Assembly: GCF_005780165.1 (NCBI RefSeq) | Contig: NZ_VAUV01000012.1 | Coordinates: forward strand, 62,001-126,000 | DNA from: Phragmitibacter flavus | GTDB taxonomy: Bacteria; Verrucomicrobiota; Verrucomicrobiia; Verrucomicrobiales; Verrucomicrobiaceae | Length of the DNA stretch: 64,000 nt | Reading direction: 5' to 3' | Shown: piece after piece, positions 13,411 to 21,246 of the stretch | How positions within the stretch are numbered: position 1 is the first letter of the stretch | Layout: each line of letters starts with the position of its first letter | Notes under the pieces: generated by a model | Told to the model about the DNA's origin: nothing | The model's input: only the letters and a program-made list of their open reading frames with translations | Database searches by the model: none | Program-made: the position numbers and the translations under genes

Positions 13411-13450
13411 GGAAACAAAAAAACTGCGTGATCCAGGTGGGATCACGCAG
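13411..13450 (-). terminator. Rho-independent terminator of the ExbBD-toroid operon
   Basis: Perfect 11-bp stem CTGCGTGATCC/GGATCACGCAG with a 5-nt loop. On the minus strand it lies 27 bp after the toroid gene and runs into a T-rich tract (complement of AAACAAAAAAA), so it ends that operon. Confidence 0.85.
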
Positions 13451-13477
13451 TGGATGAAGTTACTGATGGGTGAGCGA

Positions 13478-15313
13478 TTAGCGACGGTTGAAGATCGACT
13501 CGGCTTCCTTGTCGCCGACCTTGAGATAACGGTAGTAGACCTCAAGCATCAGTGTGCAAAGAACGGTGCGGTAAAGTTCGCGGTCGGCTCCAACGCCTGC
13601 GGTGCCGCCTGCGGACCAGTCGGGAGTTTCGGTTTTCCAGTTGCCTCCGGGGGCCTGATTGGCGAGGATTTCGGGGAGGGCGGTTTTGTTCCAGTGATCC
13701 CATTCTTCGCCGCCGTTTTGGAAGAATGCCTGGGCGTAATAATACCAGCAATAGAGATTGGCATTTTTGTTCCAGGCGGGTGGTTCCTTGGTAAAGAGAT
13801 CGTAGGCGAATCCGACACCCTTACGAATGGGGGCATTTTTGGCGCGGGCAAGGGTTTGAAGGCCGAGGATGCCAACGCCGGTGAGGCTCCACTGGTTGTA
13901 GTGGGCCTCCCGATTGGTATTGCCGAATCCACCATCTTTGGTTTGGACGGTTTCCAAGTATTTAACGGTTTTGTCGACGGCGGGTTTAAGTCCTGCGATT
14001 TTGAGATTGGTGTGTTGGGCGGCTTTGAGGGCCTGAAACTGCCAGCCGGCGACCGAAAGGTCAGAGTTGTTGACTTTCACGCCTTCCACCACGGCTTTGG
14101 CATAATACCCCCAGGAGCCCTTGTCGTTTTGCTGGTCAATGATGATTTCGACGCCGCGTTCGAAGGCTTCGCGCATGCCGGGAAGGGATTTGCTGCCCAT
14201 GCGTGCGAGGGTATACATTTCGCCGAGGGCGTAGGTGGCGATGCCGTGCTCGTAGGCGCCGCCGTGGCCGGAGGGGTTGGCGGTGAACAGGCCGTGTTCA
14301 TTTTTCTTAGAGAGCTCAATGAGGTAGAGAATGCCTTTCATGACGTTGTCGCCATAGAAAGGGGAGTCAGGGGTTTCGCAGCGACCGAGATAACAAAGGA
14401 GGGCCAGACCAGTCATGGCGGCCTTGTTGCCCCTGCCCCAGGATCCATCTTCGTTTTGCTGGGTTTTGAGCCACTCGAGGGCCTGGCTGACGGCGCGTTC
14501 GCATTCAGGATTGCCGCCGCTTTCAACGAGTTTTTGGAGTCGTTCCGCGCTGCTGCAACGGCTTTTCATGGTGGGGGGAAGGCTGATGAAGCCGGCCTGA
14601 CCACCGATCCCCTGACCGGTGCCAAATCCGCCACCGCTGCCGAGTCCGCCGGAACCGAAACCACCGCCGCCCATGCTGCCACCAAGGAGGCTGCTGGTTT
14701 CGGGCATCGGGACATCGTCAATGGGAATGTCGGGGAGGTTGATGACTGCGTTGGCACCTTCGACGGTGACGCGTCGCATCGGGGTGCTTTTGCTGAGGTT
14801 GCTGCGTTTTTTCTGTTGAACAGTCTGGGTGAGTTGCTGGCTGGCTTCCTGGCCCTGCTTGCTGCCGCCCCCGGGCAGGAAGTCGACTTGTTTTTCGTGA
14901 ACGATGGTCTCGACGACGAAGTAGGCGGCGATGAGACCGGCGGCGTGGATGCCGACGCTGACCATGAAGGAGCCACCACCGGCTTTGCGCCAGTATTCAA
15001 TGAAGGCGTTCTTTTTGGGCGGGGCAACGTATTCGATGGCGGGCGGCTGATTCGGATCGTATTCGATCTCCACTTCGGTCGGTTGCGCTTGGGCGGCGAC
15101 GGACGGGGGAGGGGTGATAAAGGACGGGGCAGCGGGAATGAAGATGGGTCCGGAGTTGCTGCCACTGGTCTCGCGATTGGTGGCGCTGAGGGACTGGATT
15201 TGAACGGGGGCAATGGGAACGGAGCTGGTCTCGGGCCGGACGGGTGTTGAGGCTTCAGATGGCTGAATGGGGACAGGTTGGCTGTCGTCCGGAGCGTTGG
15301 ATGGAGGGCTCAT
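13478..15313 (-). CDS. TonB-type transmembrane anchor fused to a terpenoid-cyclase/prenyltransferase-like toroid
   Basis: The 611 residues divide into a cytoplasmic Pro-rich region (1-110); one membrane helix (about 115-137) containing SVGIH, the Ser-x3-His pattern conserved in the TonB helix (Ser119, His123); a Gln/Ser spacer; a Gly-rich linker (211-241); and an alpha-alpha toroid domain (250-600). The toroid has repeated QW-like motifs, for example DGSWGRGN, KGSWGYYA, DGGFGNTN and GGNWKTE, as in squalene/prenyltransferase repeats, but the cyclase DxDD motif is not seen, so it is probably not a cyclase. It ends an operon with ExbB and two ExbD genes. I infer that ExbBD drives this protein in the periplasm. 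Confidence 0.9.
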   Translation of the reverse strand: MSPPSNAPDDSQPVPIQPSEASTPVRPETSSVPIAPVQIQSLSATNRETSGSNSGPIFIPAAPSFITPPPSVAAQAQPTEVEIEYDPNQPPAIEYVAPPKKNAFIEYWRKAGGGSFMVSVGIHAAGLIAAYFVVETIVHEKQVDFLPGGGSKQGQEASQQLTQTVQQKKRSNLSKSTPMRRVTVEGANAVINLPDIPIDDVPMPETSSLLGGSMGGGGFGSGGLGSGGGFGTGQGIGGQAGFISLPPTMKSRCSSAERLQKLVESGGNPECERAVSQALEWLKTQQNEDGSWGRGNKAAMTGLALLCYLGRCETPDSPFYGDNVMKGILYLIELSKKNEHGLFTANPSGHGGAYEHGIATYALGEMYTLARMGSKSLPGMREAFERGVEIIIDQQNDKGSWGYYAKAVVEGVKVNNSDLSVAGWQFQALKAAQHTNLKIAGLKPAVDKTVKYLETVQTKDGGFGNTNREAHYNQWSLTGVGILGLQTLARAKNAPIRKGVGFAYDLFTKEPPAWNKNANLYCWYYYAQAFFQNGGEEWDHWNKTALPEILANQAPGGNWKTETPDWSAGGTAGVGADRELYRTVLCTLMLEVYYRYLKVGDKEAESIFNRR

Positions 15314-15425
15314 GTGGTTTTTTGGGGGAAGGTGGTGGTGAGTGAAGGCGAGGTTGATTGGCGTGTTTCGCTTTCGCCAGGCTGGTCTTTTGCTGTTTGC
15401 TAAAACGATCGAGGTGAACGGGTTA

Positions 15426-15893
15426 TTAGAATTCTTCGGTGCCCACGGTAAAGGTCACGTTGGCGATTTTGGCGGCGGCGAGGGCGTTCATGACGTCAAT
15501 GATGCGCTCGTATTTGGCCTGTTCGGCGGTCTGGATGGTGACGAGGACTTTGCTGCCACGGGAGTCGGCGTCTTCCTTGAGCCGGGCGATGGAGTTGGTG
15601 AGGGTGGGGAGGCTTTTGTCCTGGGGGGTGTCAAATTCCTCGTCGTTCATGAGAACGATGCCGTCTTCGTCGATCTCGATGATGACTTCGTCGGGATCGT
15701 CTTCAATGCGGTCGCTGGAAGTCGAGACACCAGGGAGGTTGGTTTTGAGTTCGTGCTCCACTTTCACGGCGGCGGCCATGACCATGAAGTAGAGCATGAT
15801 GACGAAGATGACGTCCACCATGGGGGCGATTTGGAATCCCAGGTTGATGGATTCGACTTCCAGGTTGCGTCGGCCTTTGCGGTGGTTGGACAT
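15426..15893 (-). CDS. ExbD/TolR-family biopolymer transport protein (second copy)
   Basis: A 155-residue single-pass protein. After a basic N-terminus comes the helix FQIAPMVDVIFVIMLYFM, keeping the Asp that carries protons in ExbD/TolR (D25 of E. coli ExbD). The periplasmic part (about 50-155) has an acidic insertion (SSDRIEDDPDEVIIEIDEDG) and the family fold ending NVTFTVGTEEF. It lies 9 bp after the other ExbD gene. Both keep the Asp, so a heterodimeric ExbD pair in one ExbB ring is plausible. Confidence 0.93.
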   Translation of the reverse strand: MSNHRKGRRNLEVESINLGFQIAPMVDVIFVIMLYFMVMAAAVKVEHELKTNLPGVSTSSDRIEDDPDEVIIEIDEDGIVLMNDEEFDTPQDKSLPTLTNSIARLKEDADSRGSKVLVTIQTAEQAKYERIIDVMNALAAAKIANVTFTVGTEEF

Positions 15894-15902
15894 GGGACGA
15901 GA

Positions 15903-16337
15903 TTACTTGTTGAGGGCGGAGAAGGAGATGTTGTCGATGCCTGCGGCTCCGATGACGCTCATGGTGCGTTGGATTTCGATGGCGGGGAGGTTTTTGTCGC
16001 CCCGGATGATGACGTGGTATAGCGGCTGGGCGGCTTTGCGTTCCCTGAGGACCTGGGTGAGGTCTTCAATGTTTTCGTAGTCGGGTCCTTCAAAGCTGAA
16101 GACACTTTTTTGGGTCCGACCGTCCCAACGAACGTTGAGAGCGCCTTCCTGCGTCGCGACCTTTTCCTTCTTCTTGGAATCGGGTGCGACAGGCAGGGCA
16201 ATGCGGTCGTCGATTTGCAAGACTTCGGCGCTGGTGATGCTCATGAAGAACACGAGCAGCACCAAGAGACAGTCGATGATCGGAGCGATTTGAAACTCCG
16301 GCTCACCATTTTCCATACTTCCGCCGCCGCTAGCCAT
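15903..16337 (-). CDS. ExbD/TolR-family biopolymer transport protein (first copy)
   Basis: The 144 residues include the membrane helix FQIAPIIDCLLVLLVFFM with the proton-carrying Asp, a periplasmic ExbD-type domain and an end (IGAAGIDNISFSALNK) typical of the family. A Lys-rich stretch (SKKKEKVATQEG) lies after the first periplasmic strand. Its helix differs clearly from the second ExbD, so this is not a recent duplication. It follows the ExbB gene and should plug the ExbB pore. Confidence 0.93.
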   Translation of the reverse strand: MASGGGSMENGEPEFQIAPIIDCLLVLLVFFMSITSAEVLQIDDRIALPVAPDSKKKEKVATQEGALNVRWDGRTQKSVFSFEGPDYENIEDLTQVLRERKAAQPLYHVIIRGDKNLPAIEIQRTMSVIGAAGIDNISFSALNK

Positions 16338-16411
16338 ATTTTTTTAAGAGGTAAAAGGTTTTGGGATGGGTTTAATTTTGTGACTGGAAACCAGAGATTG
16401 GGGATGGGGAA

Positions 16412-17242
16412 TTAGACGGGGACGGCGGTGGTGGCTTCGTCTTCTTCGCCAATCCAGTTGGGGCGGGCGGCAAAAAACTCTTCTTCACCGACATGGCAAT
16501 CTTTGAGGTCCTCGTAGGGCATTTTGCGGAACAAGGAGAAGGTGATGTCCTGAAGTTGATGCATGGAGCCTTGAAGCTTGTTGCGCAGGACGTAGAACAT
16601 CATGAAGGCAGGAATGGCGACGGCGAGACCGGCGGCGGTGGCCATGAGCACCTCGCCGATGTGGCCTGCGAGGGCGCCGGGATTGGTGATGCCAGCAGTG
16701 CCCATTTCGGAGAATGCTCCCATCATCCCGCCGACGGTTCCGACAAGACCGACCATCGGGGCGCAGACGCCGATAACGGAGAGGTAGTTGATGCGCGTGG
16801 TCATGGAGGCGTTGAGTTTGTTGATTTCATCAAACATGGCGTTCTCGGTGGCCTCTTGGCCGTCGCCGATGAAGCTGAGTCCGACCCGGACGTTATTGCA
16901 GAAGGGGGAGGGGTTGATTTTGCAGTGCTGGTAGGCTCCGACGTAGTCCCCGAGGCGGAAGAAGTCCTTGGCTCCGTCGACGTGGGCCGGGGGGCTGAGT
17001 TTGTTCGTGGCGGTGCGCATCCAGAGGTCGGTGGACAGCCAGACGATCACCATGGAGAAGACGGTGAGGGGATACATGACCCAGCCACCTTCTTTGAATT
17101 TGTCGAGCAGCGACTTGTGTTCGACGGTGCGGGTGACTTCGGCTCCCTCGGCGGGCGGGGCTTCTTCCTGGGCGTATAGGGTGGCCGCAGAAACGGTGAA
17201 GACGAGGGCGCAGGCGAGGAGGATGTTGCGGAGGTGACGCAT
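16412..17242 (-). CDS. ExbB/TolQ/MotA-family proton channel protein
   Basis: With the start at MRHLRNILLACALVF the protein has 276 residues. An N-terminal signal-like stretch ends near LYAQ, as is common for ExbB in this phylum but absent in E. coli ExbB. Helix 1 is WVMYPLTVFSMVIVWLS; helices 2 and 3 carry the conserved core LVGTVGGMMGAFSEMG and LMATAAGLAVAIPAFM with the family Thr residues. It forms the inner-membrane pentamer around ExbD and uses the proton gradient. An upstream start (17278) would add MQLLTQNTHSPI and seems less likely. Confidence 0.93.
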   Translation of the reverse strand: MRHLRNILLACALVFTVSAATLYAQEEAPPAEGAEVTRTVEHKSLLDKFKEGGWVMYPLTVFSMVIVWLSTDLWMRTATNKLSPPAHVDGAKDFFRLGDYVGAYQHCKINPSPFCNNVRVGLSFIGDGQEATENAMFDEINKLNASMTTRINYLSVIGVCAPMVGLVGTVGGMMGAFSEMGTAGITNPGALAGHIGEVLMATAAGLAVAIPAFMMFYVLRNKLQGSMHQLQDITFSLFRKMPYEDLKDCHVGEEEFFAARPNWIGEEDEATTAVPV

Positions 17243-17327
17243 GATTGGGGAGTGTGTGTTTTGAGTGAGGAGTTGCATGTGGTCGGTTGTTGGATTGGTT
17301 GAAATAAAGAGAAGGGAGGTGGACTGC

Positions 17328-18284
17328 TTAGTTGGAGGTGGTCGTGGGAGTGGGAGTGGGGGTGGAGGTCTTGGCAGGAGTGACGGAATCAGGCTTGTTT
17401 TGCAGACCGCCGATGGGGAGCATTTCTTGTTTGGCGATATTGCCTGCCTCGGAGTCGGGATAGCTTTCAACGATGCGTTGGTAGAAACCGCGGGCATCTT
17501 CAAAGCGTTCCATTTTGGCGAGGCAGCGGGCGGCGAAAAGTTCGGCTTGGGGGACCAACGCAGACTGGCTGCCATAGAAGACGGGGACGTTAAGCGCGGC
17601 CATGAGAGCATCTTCGAACGCTTCTTTGCGAAGGTGGATGTCGGCAATGGTCATCCAGATGCGTCCAGAGATGGCGGAGTCGTCGGTGCTTGCGAGGATG
17701 GTTTTTGCCTGGGTGAGGAGCTCGTCGTGATTGGAGGAGGTGCGCCGCTGCATGTTGAGTTTGATGATGCGCAGTTTGAGGGTGTCCTGTTCGCCCCATT
17801 TCATTTTTTCGACCTCTGGAAGGGCACGCAGCAGGGCATCAAAATCACCGGCCTGATCGAGGGCTTCCACGTGGGCCAGCGAAATCTGCTGGTAGGGGTT
17901 GCCTTTGACGTCTTTGAACGGCGTGAAGTATTCTTTGGCTTTTTGGAGGGTCTCTGAGGCTTCCTTGAGCTTGCCTTCGCTCAACTGATTTTGGGCTTGG
18001 AGGAGTTCGGGCACATCCGGCCAGTCGAGGCTCTCGATGTCGCTGGTGTTGATGTTGACGAGCGCCTTCTGGCCGTTGCCGAGGGTGACGGTGCGGGCAA
18101 TTTGATTGTCCTTGATCTCAAAATTGCCTTTTTCGATCCGCACCCCGTCCTTGAGAATGATGGCCTGGGCGTGGGCTTCGGAAATGCTGATGACGTTCAG
18201 AGCAAGAAGCAAAAAAATGGGCAGCCAGGAAACGTAGAGGCCGTTTCGCAGGGGGGTTGAGATCGGGAAGCGTGGGGCTGACAT
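17328..18284 (-). CDS. Secreted TPR-like helical-repeat protein of the ExbBD operon
   Basis: Starting at MSAPRFPISTPLRNG the protein has 318 residues; the frame extends far upstream but overlaps the next gene. A signal peptide (LYVSWLPIFLLLALNVISIS) leads to a small beta segment (ILKDGVRIEKGNFEIKDNQI) and then helical pairs resembling TPRs (ALVPQAELFAARCLAKMERF, FYQRIVESYPDSEAGNIAKQ). The C-terminal tail is a run of Thr/Pro. I do not recognise a named family. It sits between the large TPR gene and exbB, so it may scaffold the complex in the periplasm. Confidence 0.8.
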   Translation of the reverse strand: MSAPRFPISTPLRNGLYVSWLPIFLLLALNVISISEAHAQAIILKDGVRIEKGNFEIKDNQIARTVTLGNGQKALVNINTSDIESLDWPDVPELLQAQNQLSEGKLKEASETLQKAKEYFTPFKDVKGNPYQQISLAHVEALDQAGDFDALLRALPEVEKMKWGEQDTLKLRIIKLNMQRRTSSNHDELLTQAKTILASTDDSAISGRIWMTIADIHLRKEAFEDALMAALNVPVFYGSQSALVPQAELFAARCLAKMERFEDARGFYQRIVESYPDSEAGNIAKQEMLPIGGLQNKPDSVTPAKTSTPTPTPTTTSN

Positions 18285-18336
18285 GGCGGAAGAGAAGAGA
18301 AAATGGTCGATGGAGAATTCGGATGGGGCGGGCGGA

Positions 18337-21246
18337 TTAACTGCCGAGGGTGGGGAGCAATTGCTGAGCTTCGTTGAATTCGGGTTGATCCTGAATGTCG
18401 GTGCGGGCGAGCATCTCTCGGAGAAGTTTGACGGCGTCTTCCCTGCGGTTGAGTTTGACGCAGGCTTTCGCGGCATGGAGATAGGACTTGGCAAACCAGT
18501 CCTTGTAGCGGCGCTGGGTGAGGAAGCAACGTTGATACCAGCCGAGGGCTTCCTCGTGTTTGGCCTGGGCGTCGGCAATCTGGCCGAGCATGAAGAGAGA
18601 AATCGCCGTGGCTTCGCCGCGCCATTCCCTGTTGTTGCGGATGGTGTCGTAGAGTTCGGTCGCTTCATCGAACTTGGCGAGGGCCATGAGGGTTTTGGCC
18701 TTGCCGAGGTAGGCGTCAAGGATGCCGGAGGTGGCAACGTATTTCTCAATGGCCTCATTGTAGAGCTCGAGTGCTTTGTCGTAATCCTTTTGTTCGTAGG
18801 CGATGGCGGCGAGGCCGATGGGGGCTTTGTCGCCGAATTCGCTGTCGGGGTATTTGGTGCGAAGGATGTTGAAGTATTCGGTGGCTTTTGTGAAGTCACC
18901 GCGTTTGAGGAGCATTTCGCCCAGCGTGGAAAGGAGCAGGGGGCTGAGTTCCTCGGCTTTGGCGGCGTCGGGGATGATGCTGACGATGTTGTCGTATTTG
19001 GGAATGTCGCGCAGGCTTCGGGCGATGAGAGCGCGGGCGAAGAGGACGCGGGCGGCAGCGGTGCCGTTGACAAGGGAGGCATCACCTTCCGGGAGGAGGA
19101 TGTCGCGGAATTTTTTCTCGTAGGTTTCAATGTCGGCGGTGGCGGCTTCGGCGCTGATGTTGCGGGAGCGTTTTTTGGGCAGGATCATGGAGATCAACTG
19201 CTGGAGAAGCATTTCCACCTGTTCATTGGCGGGGTTGCCGAGGAACGGGAAGGCTTCTTTGGCAACAAGCTTGCGGGCCTCGTCGCTTTTGGCTTCGGCT
19301 TCAGTGGTTTTGCCTTCTTTGAGGAGCTGGCTGGCCTCGCGTTCCTTGGCGCGGCTGATCCAGTGAATGGCCTTAAGAGCCTCGGGAGTGCCCTGTTTGG
19401 AGTTGTATTGGGTGCTCCACATATCGGAGATCTCATTCCACATGCCGCGGTCGACCATCATGTTGTTGGCGGCTTCGAGGGCGAAGCTGAGGACGTCGTT
19501 GGTTTTGGCCTTTTCAACGGCGCTGCGGTAGGCGTTGAGGGCGAGCAGGGTGTAGTCGGTGGCGTCTTCCTCTCTGGGCGGGGGCATCTGGCTGTAGATG
19601 TCGCCGAGTAGGTAGAAGACCTGGCCGATGTTGGGGTCGTTCGGAGATTCTTTGACGAGGGCTTCGAGTTCTTTGCGGGCACCTTCTTTGTCGCCGCCCT
19701 GGAAGTCGATGAAGGCGAGGCGGTATCTTGCGTCGACAACGAACTGGCCCCGGGCGTTTTGGGCGATGTAATCGCGAAGGGCGCGGCGGGTGCCGACGGA
19801 GTCGTTTTGGAAGAAGTAGGTGAGGGCGATGCGGTATTGGGCTTCGTCTTTGTAGGCGCTTTCTTTGTTGACCTCGAGCAGGGATTGGAACGCGGCGCGG
19901 GAATCGTCGAACTGTTGGGATTCAAACAGAACAATGCCGAGAAGGTAGTTGAGACGTTCCTTGTCGGCACCGGGGCTGGCGATGGCTTTTTGGAAAGCGC
20001 GGACGGCGGCGTTGATGTTGCCGCTTTCGTAGGCGAGTCCGCCGAACATTTCAGTGACCTGAGGGGCATTGGGGCCTTCAGGGAAGAGGTTCATGTATTG
20101 CTCGCACAAAGTGTAAGCGCGGGCGGAGCGCTTGAGGGCGGCGTTGCAGACGATCATGCCGAACAGGCAGCGGTGGCGGTCGGGGAATTCGGTGAATTCG
20201 TCGAAGATTTTGGTGAAGGCGAGCAGCGATTCGTAATAGCGGCCCATTTCGTAAAAACTCTGGCCGAGCTTGTAGTAAATGGCGGCATCGTAGTCGGTGG
20301 CCTTGGTGATTTCGTCGAGGATGGTTTTGTTGGCGGTGAGCAGCGATTGGGCCTCGTCCTTGCTGAGGGTGCGGCCCATGAAGTAGACGCGGCGACCGGC
20401 GTCGATTTGTTTGATCCAGCCTTCGATGGCTTCCACACGGCCTTTTTGAATGCGCAGAATTTCGCTGTGGCGGCGCACGCTTTGATAAGCGAGGAGGGCT
20501 TCGCGGTAGCGTTTTTGCTCAAGCATGGCGTCGCCAACTTTGACGCCGAGGTTGTTGAGCTGGACGATGCTTTCATCAGCGCTGGCTCCGCTGCGGAGTT
20601 TTTCGATCATGGCGGAAGCCTGATCAGAGTCGCCTTTGCCGATGTAGATTTCGGCAGCCATGAGGATGCCCTGTTGCTGTTCCTGGCTGGGTGGTCCGGC
20701 GAGGTCCTTGAGGATGGTTTCAAGAATTTCAAGCGCCTGATCGGGCTTGTTGTTGCTCTTGAAATAGAAGGCGATTTCAAGCCCGGCCTGATCCCGCAGG
20801 GTGGGGATGGTGGCGACTTCTTTGAGAACTTTGACGCCCTCGTCTTCCTTCTTCAATTTGAGGTAGGCCCGGCCAAGGCTCATCTTGGCTTCGTGAAGGA
20901 CTTCGCTGTTGGGGTAGGTGGTGACGAACTTTTGGAGGAATTCGATGGCCTTGTCGTAGGCTTCGAGATTGTAGTGGCAGGCACCTTCAAGGAACATGAC
21001 ACGCTCGAAGTCGCGGTCGCTGGTCTTGGTGTGGATGGCGGCAATTTTTTGCAGGGCGACATCGAATGTCCCACGGTTGAAGGCGGTGGTGGCTTCGCCG
21101 TAGAGCTGCTCGACTTCCTGCTCAAGGTTCAGGGCGGCGGGGGCTGCTGGGGCTGCTGCCGGTGCGGGAGCAGGGGCAGGGGCCTGGGCAAGAAGCGATG
21201 CCAGGGGACAGATCAGAGCTAGGGTGATGGAAGGAAGCGTTCTCAT
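18337..21246 (-). CDS. Large secreted TPR-repeat protein
   Basis: With the start at MRTLPSITLALICPL the protein has 969 residues. A signal peptide is followed by an Ala-Pro repeat (QAPAPAPAPAAAPAAP) and then TPR-like units through the whole length: ACHYNLEAYDKAIEFLQKFV, SLGRAYLKLKKEDEGVKVL, KLGQSFYEMGRYYESLLAF, YRIALTYFFQNDSVGTRRAL and others. Such long TPR proteins are periplasmic or outer-membrane scaffolds, comparable in layout to those in BamD/TolB-type systems. It is the first gene of the operon whose later members are ExbB, two ExbD and the TonB-toroid protein. No enzymatic motif was seen. Confidence 0.9.
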   Translation of the reverse strand: MRTLPSITLALICPLASLLAQAPAPAPAPAAAPAAPAALNLEQEVEQLYGEATTAFNRGTFDVALQKIAAIHTKTSDRDFERVMFLEGACHYNLEAYDKAIEFLQKFVTTYPNSEVLHEAKMSLGRAYLKLKKEDEGVKVLKEVATIPTLRDQAGLEIAFYFKSNNKPDQALEILETILKDLAGPPSQEQQQGILMAAEIYIGKGDSDQASAMIEKLRSGASADESIVQLNNLGVKVGDAMLEQKRYREALLAYQSVRRHSEILRIQKGRVEAIEGWIKQIDAGRRVYFMGRTLSKDEAQSLLTANKTILDEITKATDYDAAIYYKLGQSFYEMGRYYESLLAFTKIFDEFTEFPDRHRCLFGMIVCNAALKRSARAYTLCEQYMNLFPEGPNAPQVTEMFGGLAYESGNINAAVRAFQKAIASPGADKERLNYLLGIVLFESQQFDDSRAAFQSLLEVNKESAYKDEAQYRIALTYFFQNDSVGTRRALRDYIAQNARGQFVVDARYRLAFIDFQGGDKEGARKELEALVKESPNDPNIGQVFYLLGDIYSQMPPPREEDATDYTLLALNAYRSAVEKAKTNDVLSFALEAANNMMVDRGMWNEISDMWSTQYNSKQGTPEALKAIHWISRAKEREASQLLKEGKTTEAEAKSDEARKLVAKEAFPFLGNPANEQVEMLLQQLISMILPKKRSRNISAEAATADIETYEKKFRDILLPEGDASLVNGTAAARVLFARALIARSLRDIPKYDNIVSIIPDAAKAEELSPLLLSTLGEMLLKRGDFTKATEYFNILRTKYPDSEFGDKAPIGLAAIAYEQKDYDKALELYNEAIEKYVATSGILDAYLGKAKTLMALAKFDEATELYDTIRNNREWRGEATAISLFMLGQIADAQAKHEEALGWYQRCFLTQRRYKDWFAKSYLHAAKACVKLNRREDAVKLLREMLARTDIQDQPEFNEAQQLLPTLGS

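Follow-up and report, generated by a model that had tools for sequence, protein, structure and literature searches.

To our knowledge, TonB and TolA were long regarded as the sole effector ends of ExbBD/TolQR motors. The vWA-headed class described in 2025 was an early exception to this view: Williams-Jones et al. reported PVC operons encoding a TPR protein, TolQ, two unlike TolR proteins and a vWA-headed transducer resembling TonB, and their AF3 models show the transducer helix docked through its His (PMC12204202). For comparison, E. coli cryo-EM structures have TonB Ser16 and His20 in contact with ExbB Ser34 and Trp38 (PMC12215075). A further related system is MUL1 of Akkermansia, in which the genes are ordered ExbB-ExbD-ExbD-TPR-Mul1B. 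Uptake of mucin products is reported to depend on the MUL genes (PMC12418764, PMC13174399), and MUL1 synteny is reported to be absent from aquatic Akkermansiaceae (PMC13174399). When we searched the literature for a toroid-headed or PA14-headed ExbBD transducer, we found none. The only related paper was PMC12204202, which describes neither and whose main text does not mention toroid, cyclase or PA14 heads, and an Akkermansia outer-membrane proteome paper contained nothing on the proteins of the operon described here.

The window, by which we mean the whole stretch of 64,000 nucleotides that was analyzed, contains a toroid-headed transducer at the end of a minus-strand operon (positions 13478-21246). 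According to the list of open reading frames, six collinear genes encode in order a TPR protein, a TPR-like protein, ExbB, two ExbDs and the toroid protein:

18337-21246, minus strand: tprA, operon gene 1, a periplasmic TPR protein of 969 aa with an N-terminal signal peptide
17328-18284, minus strand: tprB, a secreted protein of ~318 aa in which a few weak TPRs are combined with an N-terminal region
16412-17242, minus strand: exbB, a MotA/TolQ/ExbB proton-channel protein with a signal-like N-terminal extension
15903-16337, minus strand: exbD1, an ExbD/TolR protein with the transmembrane Asp (PF02472, 63.2 bits)
15426-15893, minus strand: exbD2, a divergent second ExbD/TolR protein with the transmembrane Asp (PF02472, 70.1 bits)
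13478-15313, minus strand: the toroid-headed TonB-like transducer, 611 aa
14894-14977, minus strand: single transmembrane helix of the transducer (aa 113-140), with SVGIH (aa 119-123) at 14959-14945
14573-14893, minus strand: periplasmic linker of the transducer (aa 141-247), a helix (152-175) followed by a disordered Gly-rich stretch
13517-14572, minus strand: toroid head, an alpha/alpha6 barrel (aa 248-599), assigned by profile and fold
13423-13451, minus strand: intrinsic terminator with a 12-pair stem and T7

The genes are separated by 9 to ~112 bases. Among the terminator-like sites found in our scan (20 observed vs 14.7 in shuffles), the one 3' of the toroid gene is the strongest. These coordinates match the sequence-only reading of the locus, which had described six collinear minus-strand genes ending at one strong terminator, and the last protein has all the parts it had listed: a Pro-rich N-terminus, SVGIH within a membrane helix, a linker rich in Gly and a toroid with QW motifs. 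The gene layout needed correction only at tprB, which starts at the ATG at 18284 and has a weak likeness to TPR proteins and a separate N-terminal region. The flanking genes, a GatC/GatA-like pair upstream and an HlyD-like protein downstream (both from the translations of the reading frames), are on the plus strand and thus lie outside the operon. We also considered a defense system and dropped this reading because PADLOC returned no relevant match for the operon and PHROG no match for the toroid protein.

The ExbB protein (89.7 bits, PF01618) and both ExbDs score above their Pfam cut-offs. The two ExbDs are 25% identical to one another, and alignment places an Asp of each on the transmembrane Asp of TolR/ExbD (PIIDCLLVLLVFFM; PMVDVIFVIMLYFM), so the earlier claim that both copies keep the proton-carrying residue holds. 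To read individual columns of ExbB we used a reference sequence for E. coli ExbB, of which the C-terminal part alone was confirmed against the PDB. At these columns the window ExbB retains the TM1 Ser, the TM3 Pro and a Thr at both pore positions. The pore Thr residues and the ExbD transmembrane Asp are features shared with the 5:2 motors ExbBD and TolQR.

Of 57 relatives, 55 have a homologue of the toroid protein, as do 147 of the 289 genomes sampled from the phylum, some of these matches covering the shared N-terminal module only. Named carriers include Verrucomicrobiaceae, Prosthecobacter, Brevifollis, Luteolibacter and other Akkermansiaceae. The sequence-only reading had proposed a survey of the six-gene order, and in neighborhoods that spanned at most 20 kb we find TPR-TPR-ExbB-ExbD-ExbD-toroid in this order at ~35 loci across many families of Verrucomicrobiota; at some of them the toroid is doubled or there are three ExbDs. 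Such repetition in many families excludes a chance arrangement and indicates that the module is conserved.

Some toroid loci have additional features. In five cases (L074, L187, L207, L209 and L217) a second motor, ExbB-ExbD-TPR, directly follows the toroid operon on the same strand. Elsewhere the toroid proteins carry long N-terminal extensions before the membrane helix (L096, L100, L101, L194 and L195), and at L096, L100, L194 and L195 a vWA-headed sibling directly follows the toroid protein, the sibling at L096 having TPR-like repeats. Eight metagenome-assembled genomes titled Akkermansia muciniphila (L165, L174, L177, L192, L200, L207, L209 and L225) contain toroid proteins and operons that resemble those of Verrucomicrobiaceae or other Akkermansiaceae, and their titles look wrong.

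The transducer helix and linker form an N-terminal module (N-module) that is common to toroid, vWA and PA14 lectin-like heads. Within the source genome, a PA14-headed protein (L062) has an N-module 41% identical (E 3e-37) to that of the window protein, and a protein with a vWA-like head (L063) has one that is 47% identical (E 5e-34). The head at L062 is PA14-like: in a structural comparison its AF2 model is closest to the PA14 domain with which an RTX adhesin binds sugar (Z 12.0), and lectin adhesins of yeast come next. Of 33 proteins that have the N-module but no toroid, 14 end in a PA14-like domain and 19 in a vWA or vWA-like one, 10 of the latter being recognized by profile and 9 judged from a DxSxS motif, for which Pfam support is marginal at best. 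Operons that mix toroid and PA14 heads occur, as do toroid-vWA pairs. PA14 lectin-like heads on TonB-like transducers are present at L062 (10105-11463) and, in the same genome, at L064 (1261-2715), and also at L075, L131, L185, L190 and L230.

The source genome also contains a second operon with the layout TPR-TPR-ExbB-ExbD-ExbD (L069). Its transducer has a vWA head (VWA_3 match with E 4.4e-4, below the Pfam cut-off), and its ExbB is 35% identical to that of the window. Because alternative heads occur on one N-module and the same layout is found at L069, the TPR proteins belong to a shared core whose head is variable, the toroid probably being one of the exchangeable heads that a proton-driven transducer can carry. 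The resemblance to the published PVC vWA operons is close, as these also have a TPR gene, TolQ/ExbB, two unlike TolR/ExbD proteins and an SxxxH transducer with a disordered linker; they differ in the head, which in the window protein is an alpha/alpha6 toroid and not a vWA fold. The sequence-only reading had proposed a new type of envelope machine, and this claim does not stand, given that the layout with two unlike ExbDs was already published with a vWA head (PMC12204202). The machine class, the double ExbD and the TPR neighbor are thus known, and what is new is the use of one N-module on toroid, vWA and PA14 heads.

Compared with the classical TonB-ExbBD and TolA-TolQR systems, the window operon shares the ExbB/ExbD proton motor, a helix with Ser/Ala-x3-His, and Pro-rich or disordered regions. 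In contrast to them, it has two ExbDs and two TPR-type partners, and Pfam detects no C-terminal domain of the TonB_C or TolA type in the transducer. A role as a replacement TonB was discarded because the genome separately encodes an ordinary TonB and 10 TonB-dependent receptors.

If the transducer is driven by the motor, its single transmembrane helix would be the point of contact. We classified a toroid as motor-adjacent when ExbB and ExbD lie within 7 kb of its gene on the same strand, and 100 toroids could be classified (44 adjacent, 56 away). The [Ser/Ala]-x3-His pattern is kept in 43 of the 44 motor-adjacent toroids (27 with Ser, 16 with Ala) versus 38 of the 56 located away from a motor (18 lack it). 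The difference in His retention has a Fisher p value of 8e-5, which is inflated by related sequences, and the independent losses are few. By parsimony, the toroid tree has ~10 changes overall, including about six to eight losses of the His, almost all of them away from the motor. In the 43 motor-adjacent helices aligned on the His, this residue is the only invariant column while the remaining columns vary, and it is retained across toroid sequences that are <35% identical.

Because kinship inflates the p value, we give more weight to the independent losses and to a paired loss at L113. This locus has the only motor-adjacent toroid without the His, and the neighboring ExbB is the only one of 37 motor-adjacent ExbBs without the TM1 Ser; at the column that aligns with Ser34 of the E. 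coli reference it has Leu, where the other motor-linked ExbBs have Ser. The Trp of E. coli ExbB that is contacted by the TonB His is not conserved at its column here. We also looked in the motor-adjacent helices for the complete SHLS motif, which has a Leu 7 and a Ser 11 residues after the His, and found that it is not conserved: position +7 is mostly Gly or Ala and +11 mostly Val or Ile (A130 and V134 in the window protein). The toroid transducers thus differ from TonB and TolA in the Leu and the second Ser.

Retention of the His beside the motor, its loss mostly elsewhere, and the paired loss at L113 favor docking on ExbB. On these sequence patterns, the best reading is that the toroid protein would be coupled to ExbBD through docking of its helix, as the sequence-only reading had proposed. 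That reading had asked whether both the Ser and the His are invariant: the His is, in 43 of 44 motor-adjacent copies, and the Ser is not, being Ala in 16 of 44. It had also named the routine occurrence of toroids away from ExbBD as evidence against coupling. This is what we see for 56 of the 100 toroids, yet 38 of those 56 keep the His.

The largest group of His losses is formed by Akkermansia toroids, which keep the helix and the toroid. At the loci that we read as Akkermansia from kinship (L071-L073 and L048-L058), two to four toroids occur in tandem with no ExbBD nearby, and all lack the His; several genomes of the same genus have no toroids at all. At L112 (7262-10693), a toroid protein of 1144 aa without the His adjoins large TPR genes, and there is no ExbBD.

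The C-terminus of the last protein is matched in Pfam by cyclase/prenyltransferase toroid models only. The AF2 model (single chain, 35 homologues) is an alpha/alpha6 barrel with pLDDT >90 over most of residues 250-597. Its top fold match is squalene-hopene cyclase (VIA Z 25.8, rmsd 3.0, 286 aligned, 20% identity), and further matches are alpha/alpha6 barrels including sugar epimerases (cellobiose 2-epimerase), mannanases and GH76. The putative inner helices, which were assigned by their order and not from coordinates, are more conserved than their partners in 6 of 6 pairs, and their invariant residues are Tyr354, Tyr361, Glu365, Ser420, Gln427, Tyr521, Tyr524, Tyr525 and Gln528. A cavity conserved to this degree in sequence would most naturally bind some ligand or partner.

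The same fold and the same invariant Tyr, Glu, Ser and Gln residues could also belong to an enzyme active in the periplasm, either resembling terpene cyclases or acting on sugars, which is anchored near ExbBD and not driven by it. We regard such an enzyme as unlikely. The cyclase acid motif DxDDT is absent from all 130 toroids (DxDD occurs in one), which led us to drop a functional cyclase, and a complement-type thioester domain was dropped because neither GCGEQ nor CxEQ occurs among them. The toroid shares with squalene-hopene and other type II terpene cyclases the barrel fold and QW-type motifs, but it is a single barrel on a TonB-like membrane anchor. An enzyme that is merely anchored would also not account for the tie between the His and motor adjacency, or for the binding domains (vWA and PA14) that take the place of the toroid on the N-module.

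The TPR proteins bear on a different alternative. tprA has TPRs of the YbgF/BamD/PorW kind (TPR_6, 114.5 bits) and a signal-like N-terminus (MRTLPSITLALICPLASLLAQA). tprB scores 27.7 bits against the Mul1B family NF052542, for which the cut-off is 75 and true Mul1B proteins reach 217-292; judged from this score, it is a distant relative of the Akkermansia Mul1B family and not a member. The sequence-only reading had cast the two TPR proteins as a relay for the toroid. We abandoned this idea because such proteins also accompany vWA-headed operons and the headless MUL1 system of Akkermansia, which makes them part of a common core.

The operon could instead be this lineage's MUL1-type glycan-uptake complex, with the toroid as a dispensable addition. 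The weak relationship of tprB to Mul1B and the reported role of the MUL genes in mucin-product uptake fit this idea, and both systems have a single ExbB, a pair of ExbDs, a large TPR protein and a small partner resembling Mul1B. However, tprB falls far below the Mul1B cut-off, and in two Akkermansiaceae genomes a true Mul1B locus and a toroid operon are found at separate places; for these reasons we dropped an identity with MUL1. The gene order of MUL1 is also different, the docking Ser is missing from its ExbBs and it has no recognized transducer gene, so that we consider this explanation improbable. MUL1 loci were identified here by the Mul1B family model. At L130, L134, L135 and L141 the MUL1-type motors have no recognized transducer gene and an ExbB without the TonB-docking Ser. 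Mul1B proteins above the NCBIfam cut-off also occur in other genera of the same family (L137, L138 and L141), and at L137 and L138 Mul1B adjoins a large TPR protein with no adjacent ExbB.

It is very improbable that the toroid protein serves the TPR proteins as a passive scaffold anchored in the inner membrane, with SxxxH as an inherited relic, for although many toroids stand alone and Akkermansia toroids without the His keep helix and toroid, the His is the sole invariant helix column in motor-adjacent copies and persists at <35% identity.

We therefore return to the driven transducer, and consider it likely that the operon encodes a motor of ExbB and two ExbDs powered by the proton motive force, a TPR core and a TonB-like transducer with an exchangeable binding head that passes on force. 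The motor would be a putative envelope motor of the 5:2 type in which ExbB is combined with two different ExbDs. We infer that the transducer helix docks on TM1 of ExbB through the His and the Ser or Ala four residues before it. Proton flow through ExbB/ExbD would then move or tension the helix and the Pro/Gly-rich periplasmic linker. The barrel would act as an exchangeable binding head and not as a cyclase-type enzyme, and it may transmit force to a partner in the periplasm or outer membrane, or to a ligand held in the conserved central cavity. With alternative heads (vWA, PA14 lectin-like) on the same N-module, one kind of motor could serve several targets.

The toroid-headed transducer is real and widespread, and represents a hitherto unnamed variant of a class that was described only recently. 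More broadly, we lean slightly towards a modular transducer family of Verrucomicrobiota in which one TonB-like membrane and linker module has been recombined with at least three unrelated heads, one kind of motor core powering mechanically distinct tasks in the envelope and the toroid cavity gripping a ligand or partner. If this is true, the presence of toroid and PA14 lectin ends on the same anchor in one genome would make force transduction in the envelope modular, and the different heads could be compared directly on one anchor, so that a direct test is possible. The system occurs widely in a phylum whose members are major degraders of polysaccharides and whose envelope machinery is almost unknown, and a related complex is reported to be necessary for the uptake of mucin products by Akkermansia.
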